A DNA stretch of 64,000 bases from Nitratidesulfovibrio sp. SRB-5 (GTDB taxonomy: Bacteria; Desulfobacterota; Desulfovibrionia; Desulfovibrionales; Desulfovibrionaceae): positions 310,001-374,000 of the forward strand of contig NZ_JAIOTY010000001.1 in NCBI RefSeq assembly GCF_019931275.1, written 5' to 3'. The notes beneath the pieces were generated by a model. It did not search any database, was not told the DNA's origin, and was given only the letters and a program-made list of their open reading frames with translations. Below are positions 1 through 60,191 of the stretch, one piece after another. Positions within the stretch are counted from its first letter, which is position 1; every line of letters begins with the position of its first letter. The translations under genes were made by a program, and so were the position numbers.

Positions 1-377
1 ACGGGGTTGGCCGGGCTGACCACCACGGCCACGCCGTCGATGGCGAAGGGAAAGGACACCAGGCCGTACTTCTGCACTTCTGCCTCGGTGAGCGGGCGAC
101 CGGTATTGCCGATGGCCACCAGCCCTTCACCCACCTGCTGCACGCCCACGCCGGAACCGCCGCCCGCCACCGAGATGCGCAGGGCCGGGTTCACGGTCAT
201 GATGCGTTTGGCGGCTTCCTTCATGACCGGGATGTGCGCGGTGCCCCCGGCGATGTCGAGGGAACCGGTGAGGCCGGATTGGGGCGCGAAGGCATCCAGC
301 GGCGCGGCGGTGGCGGCGGTGGCAAGGCCAAGAGCCAGAACCACGACCAGGGACAGAACGGCACGAAGACGGCGCAT
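1..377 (-). CDS. PstS-like phosphate-binding periplasmic protein (N-terminal part, cut by window edge)
   Basis: Reading from position 377 downward gives an N-terminal signal peptide (MRR start, hydrophobic stretch, AAA-type cleavage region) followed by a segment beginning LDIAGGTAHIPVMKEAA and containing AGGGSGVGVQQV. The glycine/serine-rich GGGSG loop after the first strand is the usual ligand-binding signature of PstS-type phosphate ABC transporter substrate-binding proteins. The start is supported by GGAGGG seven bases upstream. Only about 125 residues are visible; the rest lies outside the window. A related tungstate or sulfate binder cannot be excluded. Confidence 0.75.
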   Translation of the reverse strand, partial: MRRLRAVLSLVVVLALGLATAATAAPLDAFAPQSGLTGSLDIAGGTAHIPVMKEAAKRIMTVNPALRISVAGGGSGVGVQQVGEGLVAIGNTGRPLTEAEVQKYGLVSFPFAIDGVAVVVSPANP

Positions 378-3255: not shown

Positions 3256-4251
3256 CTACGTGCCGCGATTGAGAACGTAGTCGATGCTTTGCCGCAGGAT
3301 ACGACGTTCCGACGTATCGGGCAATGCATCAAGGCAGGCCGATGCCTTGTCCAGGTAGCTTGCGGCCAGTTGGCGCGTTTTCGCGTCGCAGCCGCGCGCC
3401 CGCAGGTCTGCCGCCACCTCGGCCACCGTGGCGTCGTCGAAGGTGCCTTGCCGGAAGCGCGTCACGAATGCATCGCGTTCCTGCGGCGTCAGCGTTTCAA
3501 GGTAGTAGATCAGCGGCGGAGTCAGCTTGCCTTCGCGCAGGTCGCCGCCTACGGGCTTGCCGGTGTCCTTGGACGAGGCGGCGAAGTCCAGCGCGTCGTC
3601 CACGATCTGGAAGGCGATGCCGAGGTTCAGGCCGAACCCGGCGGCGGCCTGCACGGCCTCGTCCGGGGCCTGCGCGGCCAGTGCGCCCAATTCGCACGAG
3701 GCGCGCAGCATCCACGCGGTCTTGCCGGTGATGATGTCGATGTAGGTGTCGTGCCCGTGGTCGGTGGAGCGCTGGTGGGCGATTTCCACGATCTCGCCGG
3801 TGGCCGTCTGCACGATGGCCTCGGCAATGGTTTCGGTAAGCCGGGCGTCGCCGTAGCGGGCCACGATGCGGTTGGCCAGGGCCAGCAGGGCGTCACCGGC
3901 CAGCACGGTTTCCGTCTGGCCGAACATGGTGTGGGCGGCGGGCAGGCCGCGCCGCAGGTCGGCGCCGTCCAGGATGTCGTCGTGCAACAGGGTGGCCGAG
4001 TGCAGCAACTCCACGGAGCAGGCCAGCGGGTACAGGTCCGGGCCGGAGCTTTTGCGGAACAGCCCCCCGCCTTCCGCGCCAAGCGCCCGTGCGGTGAGCA
4101 GGGTCAGCAGGGGGCGCAACCGCTTGCCGCCCGCGCGCAGCACGTGTTCGGCCACGGGGCGCACCAGCGGGTGGAGTACGGCCACCTCGGCGTCGAGCGT
4201 CTTGTTGATGCGTGGCAGTTCCGTGGCCAGATAGGCTTTGAGCTTCAGCAT
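3256..4251 (-). CDS. Polyprenyl diphosphate synthase (octaprenyl/heptaprenyl type)
   Basis: The 331-residue protein condenses isopentenyl diphosphate onto an allylic primer to make the long side chain of menaquinone. Both aspartate-rich motifs are present: DDILD with the following RRG near residue 85, and DDALD near residue 215. GGKRLRP near residue 40 is the isopentenyl diphosphate-binding motif. The length fits trans-polyprenyl synthases. It lies just downstream of futalosine hydrolase on the same strand, which supports a role in menaquinone rather than in carotenoids. Chain length cannot be read from the sequence, so ispB and hepT are both possible names. Confidence 0.88.
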   Translation of the reverse strand: MLKLKAYLATELPRINKTLDAEVAVLHPLVRPVAEHVLRAGGKRLRPLLTLLTARALGAEGGGLFRKSSGPDLYPLACSVELLHSATLLHDDILDGADLRRGLPAAHTMFGQTETVLAGDALLALANRIVARYGDARLTETIAEAIVQTATGEIVEIAHQRSTDHGHDTYIDIITGKTAWMLRASCELGALAAQAPDEAVQAAAGFGLNLGIAFQIVDDALDFAASSKDTGKPVGGDLREGKLTPPLIYYLETLTPQERDAFVTRFRQGTFDDATVAEVAADLRARGCDAKTRQLAASYLDKASACLDALPDTSERRILRQSIDYVLNRGT

Positions 4252-4381: not shown

Positions 4382-5101
4382 TCAGTCGGTCAGGAAAAGT
4401 TCGCGGGCCAGTGCGCCCAGTGCGTCCAGCGCCCCTTCCAGCGCCCAGTCCTCCGCCGCGCGCGAGCCCACGATGTTGGACATGGTGCGCGCCTCGGCAA
4501 AGGGCAGGTTGTGGCGCAGGCAGGCCAGGGCCAGGGAAAAGCCTTCCATGTTCTCCATCAGCGGTGCGTGGCGGCGGCACATGGCCCGCGCCCGCGCCGG
4601 GGTGCCGGAAACTCCGGCCACGGTCAGCGCAACGCCGCTGCGGGCCGCCGGGGGCATGGCAAGGTGCCATTGCCCGAACAGCACCTCGGGCGCAAGGTCG
4701 ATGCGGTCCCACACCGGGCCTGCCGGGCCTTCCGCCTGGGGAAAGGCGATGCCTTGCGGGTCCACGCCATCGTCGCCCGCCAGGCCGTATTCGGGCCATA
4801 CTTCGGCGGACGCCAGCACGGCGCTGCCCAGGGGGGCGCGCAACACGTCGAAGGTGCCCGCGACGCCAAGGTTCAGCACGCCGCGCACGCCCCGGTGCGC
4901 GCCCAGTACCCGGCCCAGCGACAGGGCCGCGTTGACCGGACCCACGCCGGTGACCAGCAGCAGACAGTTGCGCCCGTTGACGGGCGAGGGGCAGGCCTCG
5001 CCCGGTCCGGGCAGGGCGCAGCCCACGCGGCCCCGCCCGTTGAAGCCGGTGAGCACGGCCTTCATTTCACGGGTGGTGGCGGTGGCGATGACGAGACTCA
5101 T
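4382..5101 (-). CDS. mqnB: Futalosine hydrolase (menaquinone biosynthesis)
   Basis: The 239-residue protein is a nucleoside phosphorylase/hydrolase-fold enzyme that cleaves futalosine (or its aminodeoxy form) in the futalosine pathway to menaquinone. Visible motifs are TGVGPVNAA near residue 52, LGVAGTF near 75, MENMEGF (the ribose/catalytic region) near 183 and the C-terminal MSNIVGSR. Neighbours are a polyprenyl synthase downstream and ubiE/menG about 2.5 kb upstream, which fits the pathway. Related MTA/SAH nucleosidases share the fold, but the context and SNIVGSR favour MqnB. Only 94 bases separate it from the selenoprotein candidate, so the two may be cotranscribed. Confidence 0.82.
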   Translation of the reverse strand: MSLVIATATTREMKAVLTGFNGRGRVGCALPGPGEACPSPVNGRNCLLLVTGVGPVNAALSLGRVLGAHRGVRGVLNLGVAGTFDVLRAPLGSAVLASAEVWPEYGLAGDDGVDPQGIAFPQAEGPAGPVWDRIDLAPEVLFGQWHLAMPPAARSGVALTVAGVSGTPARARAMCRRHAPLMENMEGFSLALACLRHNLPFAEARTMSNIVGSRAAEDWALEGALDALGALARELFLTD

Positions 5102-5195: not shown

Positions 5196-5612
5196 TTACC
5201 GCTTTCGCAGCAGCAACCGCAAATGCCCCTCGGCGGTGGCGCAGGGCATGCCCACCACGTCGGCCTGCCGGATGCGGGCGATGTGCCGCGCGCTGCCCAT
5301 CTGGTTGGGCGCGATGTCCAGCAGCAGTTGCCCGCCCGCAGGCATGGACCGCAGAAGCGAACTCGCTTCCTGAAGGCCCCGTCAGCAGTCGTCCCAGCAC
5401 AGCACCACCGGCACGTCGCGCGGGGGCAGTTCGCACAGCAGGGTGCCGCGCGGAATGCCCGGCATCAGCGAGCAGGCGGGGCCGGTGCGCGGGTCGTCCG
5501 CCGTGCCCTTGTCGTCGGCCTGTTCCCTTTCCGCCGTGCGGCGCAGGGCCGCGCGCAGCGTGGCGTCGTCGGGGGCGGGGGGCAGGCGTTTGCGTCGCTG
5601 GCTGGAGAGCAT
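5196..5612 (-). CDS. Candidate selenoprotein of unknown function, in-frame TGA at 5382-5384
   Basis: Read from the ATG at 5612 (AAGGA upstream), an open frame of 76 codons ends ...LCWDDC then TGA. The same frame continues for 62 sense codons, starting RGLQEASSLLRSMPAGGQ and ending HLRLLLRKR before TAA at 5196-5198. The post-TGA part reads like real protein (LLLDIAPNQMGSARHIARI). The TGA directly follows a cysteine, giving a CWDDCU motif. A strong hairpin with an AGTT loop begins right after the TGA, with the loop 18 bases downstream, as required of bacterial SECIS elements. selB and a selenocysteine formate dehydrogenase are in the same window. I do not recognise the family. Alternatives are a nonsense mutation of a Trp or Cys codon (pseudogene) or two separate short reading frames. 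It sits between a nucleotide-sugar dehydrogenase and mqnB. Confidence 0.6.
5346..5384 (-). promoter_or_regulatory. Candidate SECIS element with its UGA codon
   Basis: After the TGA (5384-5382) the minus strand can fold as GGGCC paired with GGTCC, a small TT/C internal loop, then CAGGAAGCG paired with CGCTTCTG (one bulged G) closed by the tetraloop AGTT. The loop starts 18 bases after the TGA and has G as its second base, matching the known rule for bacterial SECIS hairpins (apical loop 16-37 bases downstream, G in the first two loop positions). The fold is inferred by eye. Confidence 0.55.
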
Positions 5613-5649: not shown

Positions 5650-6966
<1,317 letters not shown>

Positions 6967-7536: not shown

Positions 7537-8700
7537 CTAGCGCGCCTTCTTCCCCGCCTTGGCACCGCCAGCGGCGCGCTTCTTTTTTGTCGTTCCCTGC
7601 GTGGTTGCGCCGGGCAGGGTGGCCTGCTCCGCGCCGCGCGCGCCGGTTCTTGTCGTCTTGTCGCCCTTTGCCTGTCGGCCAGCCCCGGCTGCCGTTTCCG
7701 CGACAACGGTTTCCGGGACAACCATGTCCGGCACAACCGGTGCGGGGGCTGACGTTTCCGCGACGGCCGATGCCACAGGTGCGCCAGGCTTGTCGGGTGC
7801 GGTTGTGCGCGGCCTGGTGGCGGACCGTTGCTGCGTGGTGGTTTCCGTTCGGTCGTCTCCGGTTTGCGCCGCTTCCGCCGGGGGCGTTTCGGCCTGCGCC
7901 AGTCCGGCCTGCTGCTGCCCGGTCACCGGGGCAAGGGGCTTTTCGGCCACGTGCAGCCGCACGATACCCGAGGTCAGTGGCAGGTGGAACACCCGGCCAA
8001 AGCCTGCCGCCGCCATTTCCCCGGCCAGTTCGTCGGCGGTGGGAAAGGCCATGATGGTGTCCGCCAGGTAGCGGTAGGCGCCGGAATCGCCGGAAACGGC
8101 CTTGCCCACCATGGGCAGCACCCGGTTGAGGTAGAAATTGTACAGCCCGCGCCACACCGGGGTCTTGCCGGTGCCGAATTCCAGCACGCACAGCCGTCCG
8201 CCGGGCACCAGCACCCGCAGGATTTCGGCAAAGGCTTCCGACCGGGGCAGGATGTTGCGGATGCCGAAGGCGATGGTCACGCAATCCACGCTGGCATCGG
8301 CCAGGGGCAGGCGGCGTCCATCCGCCGTGGCGGGCCATATGGCGCGCGCCGTTTCGCCGAACAGCTTGCCGCGCCCGCGTTGCAGCATGGGACGGCAAAA
8401 GTCCAGCGCGGGCACGCGGGTGCCGGGGTGCTGGCGCACGATTTCCAGCGAAACATCCAGGGTGCCCGCCGCCAGGTCCAGCACGCGGCCCGTGGGGCCG
8501 GGCACCACGTGGCGCACCAGGCGATAGCGCCAGTACTTGTCCAGCCCGCCGCTGAGCACGCGGTTCAGCAGGTCATACCAGTCCGCGATGCGCCCGAACA
8601 TGCCGGAAACGCTGCGGGCATGCCCGCACGGATCGGGCTGGCGGGCGCCGTCGGTGGGCGTCGTGGCGGCATTCGGGCAGGCGGTGGCGGAGCGGTCCAT
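7537..8700 (-). CDS. ubiE: Demethylmenaquinone methyltransferase with long C-terminal extension
   Basis: The first 255 residues are a complete UbiE/MenG methyltransferase. They include FGRIADWYDLLNRVLS, the SAM-binding VLDLAAGTLDVSLE (the usual GxG glycine pattern is AGT) and the UbiE signature AFGIRN. It performs the last C-methylation of menaquinone with SAM at the membrane face. Unusually, about 130 extra residues follow, rich in Ala, Thr, Pro and Val. They end in a basic tail (TKKKRAAGGAKAGKKAR) like histone-H1-type tails. The gene lies six bases downstream of a small conserved ORF and is probably cotranscribed with it. The alternative symbol is menG. Confidence 0.85.
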   Translation of the reverse strand: MDRSATACPNAATTPTDGARQPDPCGHARSVSGMFGRIADWYDLLNRVLSGGLDKYWRYRLVRHVVPGPTGRVLDLAAGTLDVSLEIVRQHPGTRVPALDFCRPMLQRGRGKLFGETARAIWPATADGRRLPLADASVDCVTIAFGIRNILPRSEAFAEILRVLVPGGRLCVLEFGTGKTPVWRGLYNFYLNRVLPMVGKAVSGDSGAYRYLADTIMAFPTADELAGEMAAAGFGRVFHLPLTSGIVRLHVAEKPLAPVTGQQQAGLAQAETPPAEAAQTGDDRTETTTQQRSATRPRTTAPDKPGAPVASAVAETSAPAPVVPDMVVPETVVAETAAGAGRQAKGDKTTRTGARGAEQATLPGATTQGTTKKKRAAGGAKAGKKAR

Positions 8701-19289: not shown

Positions 19290-21251
19290 ATGCCTGTCGT
19301 CATGGGCACCGCAGGACATATCGACCACGGCAAGACCTCGCTGGTTCGCGCGCTGACCGGCATCGACTGCGACCGGCTGGAAGAGGAAAAACGCCGGGGC
19401 ATCACCATCGAGCTCGGCTTCGCGTTCTGCGACCTGCCGGGCGCCGGGGCTGGAGTCGGACGGCTGGGCATCGTGGACGTGCCGGGGCACGAACGCTTCG
19501 TCAAGAACATGGTGGCCGGGGCGTCGGGCATCGACTTCGTCATGCTGGTCATCGCGGCGGACGAAGGGGTGATGCCCCAGACCCGCGAGCATCTGGAAAT
19601 CTGCTCGCTGCTGGGCATTCGCCACGGCCTTGTGGCCCTGACCAAGGTGGACATGGTGGACCCGGAATGGCTGGACCTTGCGCAAGAGGACGTGGCCGGG
19701 TTCCTGGCCGGGACGTTCCTTGAAGGCGCGCCCATCTTTCCGGTGTCGTCAACCACCGGGCAGGGGCTGGACGCACTGCGCGAACACCTGGCGATGCTGG
19801 AGCGCGAACTGCGCCCGGTGCGCCGCAGCGACCTGTTCCGCCTGCCTGTGGACCGCGTGTTCACCATGAAGGGGCATGGCACGGTGGTCACCGGCACCAT
19901 GGTGTCCGGCAGCGTGAAGGTGGGCGACGAGGTGGTGCTGTACCCCGGCGGCACGCAAACGAAGGTGCGCAGCCTGCAAAGCCACGGCGGCCCGGTGGAC
20001 GTGGCCCCTGCCGGGCGGCGCACCGCCGTCAACGTGCAGGGGCTGGACGTGGAGGACGTGCAGCGCGGCGACGTGCTGGCCCACCCCGGCACGCTGTTTC
20101 CGTCCCTGCGCTGGATGACCCGGCTGACCTGCCTGTCGTCCGCGCCCACGCCGCTGAAGAACCGCACCGAGGTGCACTTTCACCACGGCGCGCGCGAGGT
20201 GCTGGCGCGGCTGTACTTCCCCGACCGGGACAAGCTGGCCCCCGGAGAAACCGCCCTGTGCGAGGTGCGCTTTACCGAGCCCATGGTGGGCGTGGCGGGC
20301 GACCGCTGCGTGGTGCGTTCGTTCTCGCCGCTGCGCACGGTGGCCGGGGGCGCGGTGCTGCACCCGCTGGGGCTGGATCTGCGCCGCAAGGACCCCGAAT
20401 TCGCGGACAAGCTGGCTCTGCTGGAGGGGCTGCCCGACGTGCCCGGTGCGCATGACACGGGTGATGCCGCCACGCAGGAGGCGGCCACCCAGTCCCTGCT
20501 GCGGCTGGCCGGTTCCGCCGGGGCGCGGCTTTCCCAGCTTTCGGTGCTGACCAACCTGGAATCGAAGAGGCTGGACAAGGCCCTGCAAGCCCTGGGGGCC
20601 AAGGGGCAGGTGTTCTGCTTCGACCGGGACGAACGCGCCTACGTGGACGCGGAGACGGTGCGCCGCCTGGGGGCGGGGTGCCTGGCCCGCGCGGCGGAAT
20701 ACCACGCCCGCGAACCGCTCAAGCCCGGCATGGCGCGCGGGGCGCTGTCCGCCGGGTGGGGGCGCGGGCTGCATCCCAAGCTGGTGCATTTCATCGTCGA
20801 GCGGCTGCTGAAGGCGGGCGAACTGGTGGCCGAAGGCGACGTGCTGCGCCTGCCGGGGCACAAGGTGTCGCTGGCCTCGGACCAGGAGGGGCTGCGCGCC
20901 AAGATTCGCGCCGCCTACGCGGAAGGGGGCAGCAGCCCGCCCAACGTGAAGGACGTGCTGGACCCGCTGGGGCTGGAATTCAAGGAAGCGGCGGCGGTGT
21001 TCAAGCTGTTGCAGGACGCCGGGGAACTGGTGAAGGTGAAGGACGGGCTGTACTTCCCCGGCCCGGTGATGGCGGACCTGAAGGCCCGCGTGACCGCGTG
21101 GTTCGACACCCACGACGACCTGGACCCGGCAGGGTTCAAGGAACTGTCGGGCGGCCTTTCGCGCAAGTACGTGATTCCGCTGCTGGAATACTTCGACAAG
21201 GAACGCGTGACCATTCGCGTGGGGGACAAGCGACAGTTGCGGGGGCGGTAG
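19290..21251 (+). CDS. selB: Selenocysteine-specific elongation factor SelB
   Basis: The 653-residue protein delivers selenocysteyl-tRNA to UGA codons carrying a SECIS hairpin. The EF-Tu-like GTPase starts at once: [14 protein letters not shown] (residues 6-19), [23 protein letters not shown] and TKVDMVD. Domains II and III follow to about residue 370. The C-terminal third contains repeated winged-helix domains that read the SECIS (last block [29 protein letters not shown]). The length is normal for SelB. The start was set at [10 protein letters not shown] because GGGAG precedes it. Two UGA-containing genes in this window (5196-5612 candidate, fdhA) are likely clients. selA and tRNA-Sec are not here. 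Confidence 0.96.
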
Positions 21252-56421: not shown

Positions 56422-59400
56422 ATGAAAATGAACCGGCGGGGCTTCATCAAGCTCGCTGCCACGGGTGCAGTGGCCACCGCGTTCGGGGGGCTGGGCATCA
56501 GCCTTGCCCCGGTCGCGGTCCATGCCGAAGGGTTGGCCATCGACAAGGCCACCCTGACCACGTCCGTCTGCTGCTATTGCGCCGTGGGCTGCGGCCTGCT
56601 GGTCTGGACCGACCCCGCGACCGGGCGCACCATCAACATCGAAGGCAACCCGGACCACCCCACCAACGAAGGCACCCTGTGCCCCAAGGGGTCGTCCATC
56701 TGGCAGACCGCGGAGCAGAGCCAGCGCATCACCAAGGTGCTGTACCGCGCCCCCGGCAGTGACAAGTGGGAAGAGAAGTCGTGGGACTGGGCGCTGCCGC
56801 GCATAGCCCGCAAGATCAAGGACACCCGCGACGCCTCGTTCGAGGCCGTCAACGACAAGGGCCAGCCGGTCAACCGCACCCGCGCCATCGCCTCCGTCGG
56901 CTCCGCCGCCATCGACAACGAGGAGGGCTGGCTGCTGCAAGCCATGCACCGCTCGCTCGGCCTGGTGTACCTGGAGAGCCACGCCCGCATCTGACACAGT
57001 TCCACTGTGGGGGCTCTGGCAGAGTCCTACGGACGCGGCGCGATGACGAATCACTGGATCGACCTCAAGAACAGCGACGTGTTGCTCATCATGGGCAGCA
57101 ACGCGGCGGAAAACCACCCCATCTCGTTCAAGTGGGTCACCCGCGCCCAGCAGCGCGGAGCAACGCTGATCCACGTGGACCCGCGCTTCACGCGCACCTC
57201 GGCCAAGGCGGACCTGTACGCGCCCATCCGCTCGGGCACGGACCTGGTGTTCTTTGGCGGGCTGATCAGGCACATTCTGGATAACGAGCTGTATTTCAAG
57301 CAGTACGTGGTGGACTACACCAACGCCTCGTACCTTGTGGGGCCGGACTACGACTTCAAGGACGGCCTGTTCTCCGGCTTCAACCCGGAGACGGCCAGCT
57401 ACGACCGCAGGAAATGGGCCTTCGTCACAGACGACAAGGGCGTGACCCTGAAGGATCCCACCCTGAAGGATCCGCGCTGCGTCTTGCAGGTGATGCGCCG
57501 CCACTACGCCCGCTACGACCTGAAGACCGTGGTGGACGTGACCGGCATGCCGGAAGACAAGGTGCTGGCGGTGTGGAATTCCTTCGCCTCCACCGGCAAG
57601 CCGGACAAGGCGGGCACCATCCTGTACGCCATGGGCCAGTGCCAGCACACCGTGGGCGTGCAGAACATCCGCGCCCTGTCCATGATCCAGATGCTGCTGG
57701 GCAACATCGGCATAGCGGGCGGCGGGGTCAACGCGCTGCGCGGCGAATCCAACGTGCAGGGCACCACGGACATTGCCCTGTTGTGCGACAACCTGCCCGG
57801 CTACCTGCCCATTCCCCGCGCCACCTGGGCAGACTACGACGCCTACGTGAAGGCGGGCACCCCGGTCACGGCGGATCCGCAAAGCGCCAACTGGTGGTCA
57901 AACATCGACAAGTACGCGGCATCCCTGATGAAGGCCATGTACCCCACGGTGGACCACAAGGAAGCGTACACCTGGCTGCCCAAGATCGACGACACCAAGG
58001 TGGTGGAATACTCCTGGCTGTCGCTGTTCGAGCGCATGTACAACGGCGGTTTCAAGGGCGCGTTCGTGTGGGGGCAGAACCCCTGCGCGGGCGGGGCCAA
58101 CGCGGGCAAGAACCGCAAGGGCATGGCCAAGCTGGACTGGGCGGTGATGGTCAACCTGTTCGAGAACGAGACCTCGCTGTTCTGGAAGGGGCCGGGCGTG
58201 AACCCCAAGGACGTCAAGACCGAGGTGTTCTTTCTGCCCGCGTGCATGAGCGTGGAAAAGGACGGCTCGGTGGCCAACTCCGGTCGCTGGCTGCAATGGC
58301 GCGAGAAGAGCGCCAGGTTCATGGGCGATTCCCTGAGCGACGGCGACATCGTCATCCGGCTGTTCGAGGAAGTGCGCAAGCTGTACAAGGCAGAGGGCGG
58401 CAAGTTCCCGGAACCCATCCTGAACCTTGATACCGCCTACCTGAAGGACGGCGCATACGACGCCAGCGCGCTGGCCAGGCGCCTCAACGGCACCTTCCTG
58501 AAGGACGTGACCATCGCCGACAAGCAGTGGAAGGCGGGCCAGCAGGTGCCCGGCTTTGCCGCGTTGCAGGCCGACGGTTCCACCGCGTGCGGCTGCTGGA
58601 TATTCTCCGGCTGCTACACCGAGCAGGGCAACATGATGGCCCGGCACGACCGCACCCAGACCCCGGAACAGGCGGCCATCGGCCTGTTCCCCAACTGGTC
58701 GTACGCCTGGCCCGCCAACCGGCGCATCCTGTACAACCGCGCCGGGGTGGACCAGACGGGCAAGCCCTTCGACCCCAAGCGCGCGGTCATTGCCTGGAAC
58801 GGCGAAAAGTGGGTGGGCGACGTGCCCGACGGCGGGTGGAAGCCCGGCGAAAAGCTGCCGTTCATCATGGTGCGCGAAGGGCGCGGCCAGTTGTTCGGCC
58901 CCGGGCGCGTGGACGGCCCCCTGCCGGAACACTACGAACCCTTCGAAAGCCCGCTGGCGGGCAACCCCCTGTCGCCGCAGCGGGTCAACCCCACGGCCCT
59001 GCACTTCGCCCACGAGGAAAAGGCCGTGCGCGACCCGCGCTTCCCTTACGTGTGCATACCGGGTGACCGAGCAGTGGCAGTCCGGCACCATGACCCGCAA
59101 GACCGCGTGGCTGAAGGAAATGCAGCCCGACGGATTCTGCGAGATGAGCCGCGAACTGGCGGCGCAACTGGGCGTGCAGAACGGCGACCAGGTGGTGCTG
59201 GAATCGGTGCGCGGCAAGGTGCAGGTGGTGGCCATCGTCACCCCGCGCCTGAAGCCGTTCACCGTCATGGGCGAAACCGTGCACCAGGTGGGCATTCCCT
59301 GGCAGTTCGGCTGGGGCCAGAAGAAGAACGCCACGTTCGATTCGGCCAACCTGCTGTCGCCTTCGGTGGGCGACCCGAACACGGGCATTCCGGAGACGAA

Positions 59401-59449
59401 AGTCTTCATGGTGAACGTGAGAAAAGCCCAGTCCGGGAAGCAAGGGTAG
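56422..59449 (+). CDS. fdhA: Formate dehydrogenase alpha subunit, selenocysteine-containing, frameshifted near 59060
   Basis: This is a periplasmic W/Mo-bis-pterin enzyme oxidising formate. Tat signal MKMNRRGFIKLAATG; [4Fe-4S] ligands in CCYCAVGCGLL and GTLCPKGSS. Codon 191 is TGA (56992-56994) in SHARI-U-HSSTVGALAESYGRGAMTNHW, the selenocysteine site of this family, followed by a SECIS hairpin. The downstream frame stays open to about 59060 (FPYVC), where coding moves by one base into the frame beginning AYRVTEQWQSGTMTRKTAW and ending at the TAG 59449. The break is at GTGTGCATACC; a two-base loss in the GTGTG run or a one-base gain explains it. It may be an assembly error or a true inactivating mutation. 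Everything else is full-length. fdhB follows after seven bases. Confidence 0.93.
56992..57027 (+). promoter_or_regulatory. UGA selenocysteine codon and SECIS hairpin of fdhA
   Basis: After TGA, CACAGT/ACTGTG forms a small stem (56995-57009). GG-CTCT (57012-57017) then pairs with AGAG-T-CC (57021-57027) with a bulged T and loop GGC, 23 bases after the TGA. The bulged T and G-starting loop match the E. coli fdhF SECIS. Confidence 0.85.
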
Positions 59450-59456
59450 GTGAGCC

Positions 59457-60191
59457 ATGAGCGAGAACAAGGGCAAGACCTTCTTCATCGACCAGACCCG
59501 CTGCACCGCCTGCCGTGGCTGCCAGGCAGCATGCAAGCAGTGGAAGAAGCTGGCCGCCGACGAAACGGTGAACACCGGCAGCTACCAGAACCCGCCAGAC
59601 CTCAACGGGCACACCTTCAAGCTGGTGCGCTTCAACGAGGTGGAAGTGGACGGCAAGCTGAAGTGGGTGTTCTTTCCCGAGCAGTGCCGCCACTGTCTGG
59701 AGCCGCCGTGCAAGATGATGGCGGACGCCTTCATCCCCGGCGCCATCATCCAGGACGAGGCCACCGGCGCGGTGATCTACACGGAAAAGACGAAGGAACT
59801 GGACTACCAGACCATCCGCGAGGCCTGCCCCTACGATATCCCCCGCAAGGAGGAATCCACGGGCCTGCTCACCAAGTGCAACATGTGCATCGACAGGGTG
59901 CGCGCGGGCATGCTGCCCGCCTGCGTCAAGACCTGCCCCACCTTCACCATGCACTTCGGCGACCGTGACGAGATGCTGGCCATGGCCCGCGCGCGGCTGG
60001 CCGAAGTGCAGAAGAAATCCCCGGCGGCCCTGCTGGCCGATTCCGACCTCGTCCGGGTGCTGTACCTGTGCGAGGTGCATCCCAGCCATTACCACCATCA
60101 CATGGTGGCCGACGCAGGCGGCGCAACGGACCGCATCGGCCCGTTCAGCCGCCGGGCGCTGCTGGCCATGCGGCCGCTGCGCACGGGGTAG
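59457..60191 (+). CDS. fdhB: Formate dehydrogenase beta (iron-sulfur) subunit
   Basis: The 244-residue ferredoxin-like subunit has four cysteine clusters: CTACRGCQAACKQW, CRHCLEPPC, ACPYDIPRKEESTGLLTKCNMCIDRV and ACVKTCPT, giving four [4Fe-4S] clusters. It has no signal peptide or membrane anchor, so it should travel with the Tat-exported alpha subunit and pass electrons to cytochrome c3. It overlaps no other gene and is followed by a terminator. No FdhC/cytochrome c subunit or FdhE is adjacent. Confidence 0.94.
   Translation: MSENKGKTFFIDQTRCTACRGCQAACKQWKKLAADETVNTGSYQNPPDLNGHTFKLVRFNEVEVDGKLKWVFFPEQCRHCLEPPCKMMADAFIPGAIIQDEATGAVIYTEKTKELDYQTIREACPYDIPRKEESTGLLTKCNMCIDRVRAGMLPACVKTCPTFTMHFGDRDEMLAMARARLAEVQKKSPAALLADSDLVRVLYLCEVHPSHYHHHMVADAGGATDRIGPFSRRALLAMRPLRTG

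Follow-up and report, generated by a model that had tools for sequence, protein, structure and literature searches.

The catalogue of PMC13188914 (May 2026) lists 119 prokaryotic selenoprotein families and subfamilies, reports Cys homologues for almost every selenoprotein, and describes searches by Cys/Sec pairs. The deep-Sep study (PMC12013277), in which candidates are filtered by homology, added nine families, none of them in its two Desulfovibrionia genomes according to the parts of that paper covered here. Adjacent Cys and Sec residues (CU motif) are found in the Csac_0668 family, SaoL, SaoC, SaoB, HgcA, MbdU and KCU-star (PMC13188914). Concerning the TusA family (TusA, SirA and YeeD, i.e., TsuB; PF01206), the catalytic Cys of YeeD belongs to a CPxP motif, is situated at the start of a helix and forms a cis Cys-Pro bond (PMC11073785). 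YedF (TIGR03527), which is linked to selenium metabolism, combines a TusA-like domain, with CPxP, and a DsrE domain (PMC5322559).

The window (the whole 64-kb stretch of DNA analysed) contains a gene whose product is very probably a selenoprotein from a so far undescribed family (hereafter the Sec family) with a TusA-like predicted fold, known almost only in the Sec form. The Sec family shares the adjacent Cys-Sec with the CU-motif selenoproteins, none of which, unlike the Sec family, is listed with a TusA domain in the parts of PMC13188914 covered. With YedF it has in common a TusA-like domain and a link to selenium metabolism, yedF itself lying near one member (L132), whereas it consists of a single small domain with Sec instead of a CPxP domain joined to DsrE.

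Within the same portion of the catalogue, none of the 119 entries carries PF01206 or a TusA name, and a TusA-type selenoprotein is equally absent from the parts covered of PMC9312934, PMC1794560, PMC1914089, PMC2432076, PMC8318568, PMC2702500, PMC5322559 and PMC11097638. A literature search, with supplementary tables and subscription papers outside its scope, returned none among the matches listed. Pfam has no model for the Sec family as such, and PHROGs gave no match. NCBIfam contains models for most CU-motif selenoproteins and, according to PMC13188914, for three nameless families of PMC12013277; no Sec-family member matched the latter, and the 28 members searched gave nothing convincing (best E 9.7e-4, one member against a TrkA model). 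The proposal of an unrecognised family thus holds against the sources checked, namely the covered part of the PMC13188914 catalogue, Pfam and NCBIfam.

Reading frame and conservation of the TGA

The features of the gene are as follows:

5196-5612, minus strand: predicted selenoprotein gene, ATG start, 138 residues plus TAA, Sec as residue 77
5382-5384, minus strand: TGA predicted to encode Sec, at the same site in 81 genomes with one TGA each
5199-5408, minus strand: predicted TusA-like core domain, residues 69-138, from AlphaFold2, structural alignment and family alignment

As described in the initial annotation, the frame (5612 to 5196) is broken by a single TGA right behind a Cys (Cys76; the TGA, at 5384-5382, is codon 77) and runs on to TAA. 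Coding continues after the TGA, but over 61 sense codons, the 62 originally counted including the stop. The placement between a nucleotide-sugar dehydrogenase gene (5650-6954) and the futalosine hydrolase gene mqnB (4382-5101) is likewise correct, all three being on the minus strand, with genes for a polyprenyl diphosphate synthase (3256-4251) and a UbiE-type methyltransferase (7537-8700) nearby.

The core protein is identical (100%) in Nitratidesulfovibrio liaohensis and 94% identical in Desulfovibrio sp. A2, both belonging to the genus of the window. It is preceded by an N-terminal extension (about 60 residues; 5409-5612, minus strand) that is conserved only within the genus. Among seven congeneric sequences, variable sites fall on codon positions 1/2/3 in the ratio 17/16/28 in this extension and 8/2/19 after the SECIS region. 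The extension is far less constrained, such that the start (ATG at 5612) is uncertain, and it may represent a linker or wrongly assigned sequence. There is coding constraint on both sides of the TGA, and the decay of the downstream frame that was to be expected of a pseudogene is not seen, the third-position bias extending past the SECIS region.

Within the phylum, 81 genomes (the window's included) from 14 taxonomic families carry a member of the Sec family, and each has a single TGA at the site. This total results from merging the searches by genome handle, the profile searches being confined to the phylum; the genome samples overlap, such that the rates of the separate searches are not additive. 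A protein search of 59 relatives (the own genome included) yielded 16 rows, 15 with one TGA; in the row of G003, a contig end cuts the sequence before the site. The core-profile search of the taxonomic family (199 genomes) gave 53 matches, 52 with one TGA and one by chance (G018, out-of-frame DNA behind a permease, rejected as a sense-codon homologue). In the order search, 38 of 199 genomes matched, G040 being newly added, and in the class search (247 genomes) 49 of 50 rows had the TGA, a weak row (G295, E 0.0086) being left out of the TGA count. A single TGA was present in 25 of 34 rows from 395 genomes of the phylum, the nine non-conforming rows (E 0.0087-0.037) being left out of the count, and, in a second search of the phylum, in 22 of 25 rows from 326 genomes.

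As the profiles carried Cys in place of Sec in this column, a Cys form would score at least equally; yet Cys, Trp or any other sense codon, whose presence in relatives had been named as evidence against Sec, occurs at the site in none of the 81 genomes, one contig-end fragment (L057) aside. A DNA pattern admitting Sec or Cys matched 17 stretches among 84,980 named genomes. Twelve of these belong to the Sec family, all with TGA (11 apparently repeat genomes already counted, only L053 being additional), and the other five have Cys. Four of these were rejected as Cys homologues because their frames are without the domain. The fifth, L057 (Acidobacteriaceae), begins at contig base 1 and ends about a dozen residues past the motif; it is too short to assign and may be a Cys form of the family. 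Three other rows were rejected as sense-codon homologues: L199 looks like a chance match, and L197 and L198 are genuine TusA proteins with CPxP. The family thus appears to occur almost only in the Sec form, no Cys version being clearly found.

The hairpin after the TGA

5346-5379, minus strand: putative SECIS hairpin, lower stem 5375-5379/5346-5350, upper stem 5364-5370/5353-5359, loop AGUU 5360-5363

The 42 nt after the TGA of the window fold into two stacked stems with the apical loop AGUU (-18.3 kcal/mol). In geometry, it presumably corresponds to the SECIS of E. coli fdhF. Bacterial SECIS elements are described with a loop of 3-9 nt, an upper stem of 4-16 bp, G at loop position 1 or 2, a distance of 16-37 nt from the UGA and a minimum free energy of at most -7.5 (PMC13188914, in the part covered). 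The window hairpin lies within these bounds, with a loop of 4 nt, a stem of 7 bp, G in second position, 18 nt and -18.3, in agreement with the AGTT tetraloop 18 bases after the TGA originally noted. Compared to dinucleotide shuffles, the z-score is -2.07, with 9 of 200 shuffles folding equally well; taken singly, the window fold is modest evidence, and the comparative evidence decides. Rfam gave sub-threshold matches only.

The comparison comprised 78 distinct members, identical-60-mer duplicates and the odd row L057 being dropped, and the control consisted of 1,000 synonymous-codon shuffles with local codon usage and the protein held fixed. Counting the T of the TGA as 1, a tetraloop is closed by pairing of positions 16-21 with 26-31 in 44 sequences, and a hexaloop by pairing of 16-21 with 28-33 in 31. 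At least five apical pairs form in 75/78 sequences (shuffles: mean 18.3, maximum 28) and all six in 72/78 (mean 2.6, maximum 8); in the tetraloop register only, six pairs are found in 42/78 versus 1.4 expected (maximum 8). The loop dinucleotide G23-U24 is present in 68 members, compared to 8.3 expected (maximum 17), and G23 in 77. The fold-energy z-score against the codon shuffles averages -2.2 over the members, that of the window sequence alone being -0.7.

Concerning covariation, two-sided changes affect five of six pairs in 25 tetraloop rows and three of six in 24 hexaloop rows; these rows were chosen by class, which makes their percentage paired circular, and are related, such that the changes are not independent events. 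The covariation score is greater than in all 500 shuffles in both the tetraloop and the hexaloop set, which is not the case for the counts of pair types. Loss of the hairpin where the TGA is kept, named beforehand as a sign of a pseudogene, is seen at most in part: the stem is kept in the 75 members given above, but neither register gives five apical pairs in L073, L061 and L056, and another sequence (L080) is without the loop G.

Predicted fold and relation to TusA

The AlphaFold2 model (window sequence with 12 named-record sequences; pLDDT 87.6, pTM 0.77) exhibits a beta-alpha-beta-alpha-beta-beta topology, with Cys76-Sec77 where helix 1 starts, the place given for CPxP in PMC11073785. The six best VIA-align structures (Z 10.6-8.8) are TsuB (two entries), SirA-like 3hz7, E. 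coli TusA (two) and YhhP, and all six are also found by a TusA sequence profile; HP1264 (2lxr, Z 8.1, not classified) and Alba (Z 7.5) follow. Foldseek alone gave no match at E <= 0.001, the folds being mixed. In sequence, the similarity to TusA/SirA/YeeD is weak but repeated. Among Pfam models, PF01206 matches most often (4/28 members, best E 1.2e-4), the window member itself having no Pfam match; hhalign to 19 TusA domains gave E 1.7e-5 (probability 78) over the part behind the active site; and the two best non-TGA rows from the phylum search of 326 genomes (E 4.9e-5 and 0.002) are genuine CPxP TusA. A PDB sequence search with the family profile returned no TusA, but three irrelevant rows, the best an engineered repeat protein. 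On the basis of the model and these alignments, a TusA-like fold is highly likely.

The register relative to the TusA Cys varies, the full alignment pairing it with Cys76 and the clade-2 subset with Sec; in the structural alignment to 3lvj_C (8..84 on 4..80), Sec would fall on residue 19 if ungapped. The tree separates 78 Sec sequences from 21 TusA by a 100/100 branch (68 columns, with long-branch warnings). Whereas TusA has CPxP, all 78 distinct members have Cys-Sec-x followed by Gly (70), Ala (7) or Pro (1), and the Sec family is regarded as a TusA-fold relative but not filed as TusA because CPxP is absent throughout.

Three sequence types can be distinguished, CWxDCUxGFxEASS (mostly Desulfovibrionaceae), DYRxDCUxGFxDVSLRL and DSRKDCUKGLVGVGLRFR, the first two not being strictly monophyletic in the tree. 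Regarding the motif first proposed, the vicinal Cys/Sec is general, [Asp/Glu]-Cys-Sec being found in 78/78 distinct members, whereas the CxxxC spacing, given by a Cys five residues before Sec (Cys72), occurs in only 53/78 and is no family feature. The eight sequences of the third type have a strong hydrophobic N-terminal stretch in six cases, a weak one in L143 and none in L196. Signal-peptide-like N-termini seem to be present in L138-L140, L143, L144, L194 and L195, that of L194 presumably being a lipoprotein signal, and this subgroup (clade 3) may be exported.

Decoding, neighbourhood and possible function

19296-21242, plus strand: selB, encoding the elongation factor specific for Sec that decoding requires (TIGR00475, 360.9 bits, cut-off 242.25)

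Besides selB, the window contains fdhA, encoding a formate dehydrogenase alpha subunit (56422-59500, plus strand), with a TGA at position 56992 (context ARI-U-HSSTVG), such that both genes named in the initial annotation as evidence of Sec decoding are present. The protein-like reading of fdhA changes frame near 59038-59060, by a frameshift or an assembly error. A tRNA scan of the 64-kb window found none. selB is above cut-off in 25/29 carriers tested, the remainder (G002, G021, G029 and G106) being assemblies in 230-590 contigs. As evidence, co-occurrence with selB fails to separate carriers from non-carriers: it is above cut-off in 25/25 carriers outside the window's family versus 70/80 non-hit genomes of the phylum (Fisher p 0.11). 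The TGA conserved in 81 genomes, the covarying hairpin, the coding constraint and selB in the window all support the selenoprotein reading, and the translated product is almost certainly a selenoprotein, as predicted from the sequences.

Gene neighbourhood was rejected as a guide to function, being conserved within clades and differing between them. Among 24 Desulfovibrionales loci plus the window, an mqnB-like gene is adjacent in 10 and the sugar dehydrogenase gene in 10, as counted by an automatic ORF clustering that undercounts in GC-rich DNA and missed the window's own mqnB. From its motif, an intervening frame in relatives looks like MqnD; it had no NCBIfam match. Outside Desulfovibrionales, the selenium metabolism-associated LysR regulator (NF040786, LysR_Sec_metab) is the next upstream gene on the same strand in six of 20 loci, the six of clade 2a (L131, L132, L135, L136, L137 and L141), and is above cut-off in all six, L132 having selD as well as yedF within 4 kb. 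LysR_Se is found only in SelD-containing organisms (PMC5322559, as far as covered). Four loci of the third type (L139, L140, L143, L144) carry a dihydrouridine synthase gene behind the Sec gene, and in three loci an ABC ATPase gene stands in front of it. In L197, another genome of the phylum, a genuine TusA-like protein (about 1320-1660) is encoded right behind a membrane-protein frame. The latter looks like a YeeE/YedE transporter, and the two probably constitute a TsuA-TsuB pair.

The simplest reading of a Cys-Sec pair in the place of the TusA active site would be selenol redox chemistry or sulfur/selenium transfer. SelB and tRNA-Sec would insert Sec at the UGA; the selenol beside Cys76 would then cycle between free selenol/thiol and a Cys-Sec selenenylsulfide or, alternatively, carry a bound sulfur or selenium atom, and the protein would pass electrons or S/Se atoms between partners. 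A single chemistry may be put to use in several settings, as one clade lies beside the selenium LysR and the N-termini of another look exported.

There is close to an even chance that the protein is a small thiol/selenol redox protein, the TusA fold being merely the scaffold of the Cys-Sec pair. This agrees with the presence of the pair in all 78 members, while the aligned TusA domains share one Cys, that of CPxP, and with the exported appearance of clade 3; but no reductase or peroxidase gene was recognised among the annotated neighbours, and the TusA-family members described in the covered part of PMC11073785 handle sulfur. Somewhat less likely, though plausible, is a protein that, as TusA does, chiefly carries sulfur or selenium, Sec being the acceptor, and that is tied to selenium supply. 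The predicted fold, the LysR_Sec_metab gene adjoining in six loci, and selD and yedF in L132 point to such a carrier, whereas the loss of the CPxP box and the exported-looking clade 3 do not, and with 52 carriers among 199 genomes of the taxonomic family, selB being above cut-off in 167, most selB-bearing genomes are without the gene, such that it would be no general selenium donor. Improbable in our view is the more specific proposal that Sec arose at the Pro of CPxP beside the retained Cys, not by replacing the catalytic Cys, giving a Sec-obligate Cys-Sec carrier of selenium (or polysulfide sulfur) tied in one clade to the selenium LysR.

That the TGA is an ordinary stop, of a pseudogene or between two adjacent short genes, is very improbable: standard annotation would end the frame there and the single-sequence hairpin reaches only z -2, but the codon is TGA in 81/81 genomes and TAA or TAG in none, the protein is conserved on both sides, and the hairpin covaries beyond codon constraint. 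Even less probable is insertion of another residue (e.g., Trp) or SECIS-free read-through; the identity of the inserted residue is read from sequence, but the hairpin lies within the SECIS bounds of PMC13188914 as covered, selB is present in the window and in the carriers as given above, and no relative has Trp at the site.

As a predicted selenoprotein, the Sec family places selenocysteine on a fold absent from the 119 families and subfamilies of PMC13188914 in the part covered, and points to a blind spot, a small, almost-only-Sec family being easily annotated as a truncated frame or missed entirely. The route of selenium to SelD is described there as incompletely elucidated. Were the protein a sulfur or selenium carrier, it would bear on selenium supply to SelD or on reactive-sulfur handling in sulfate reducers. 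If Sec arose at the Pro of CPxP, the family would constitute a counter-example to the rule that selenoproteins originate by Cys-to-Sec exchange, and a candidate for the protein handing selenium to SelD in some sulfate reducers.
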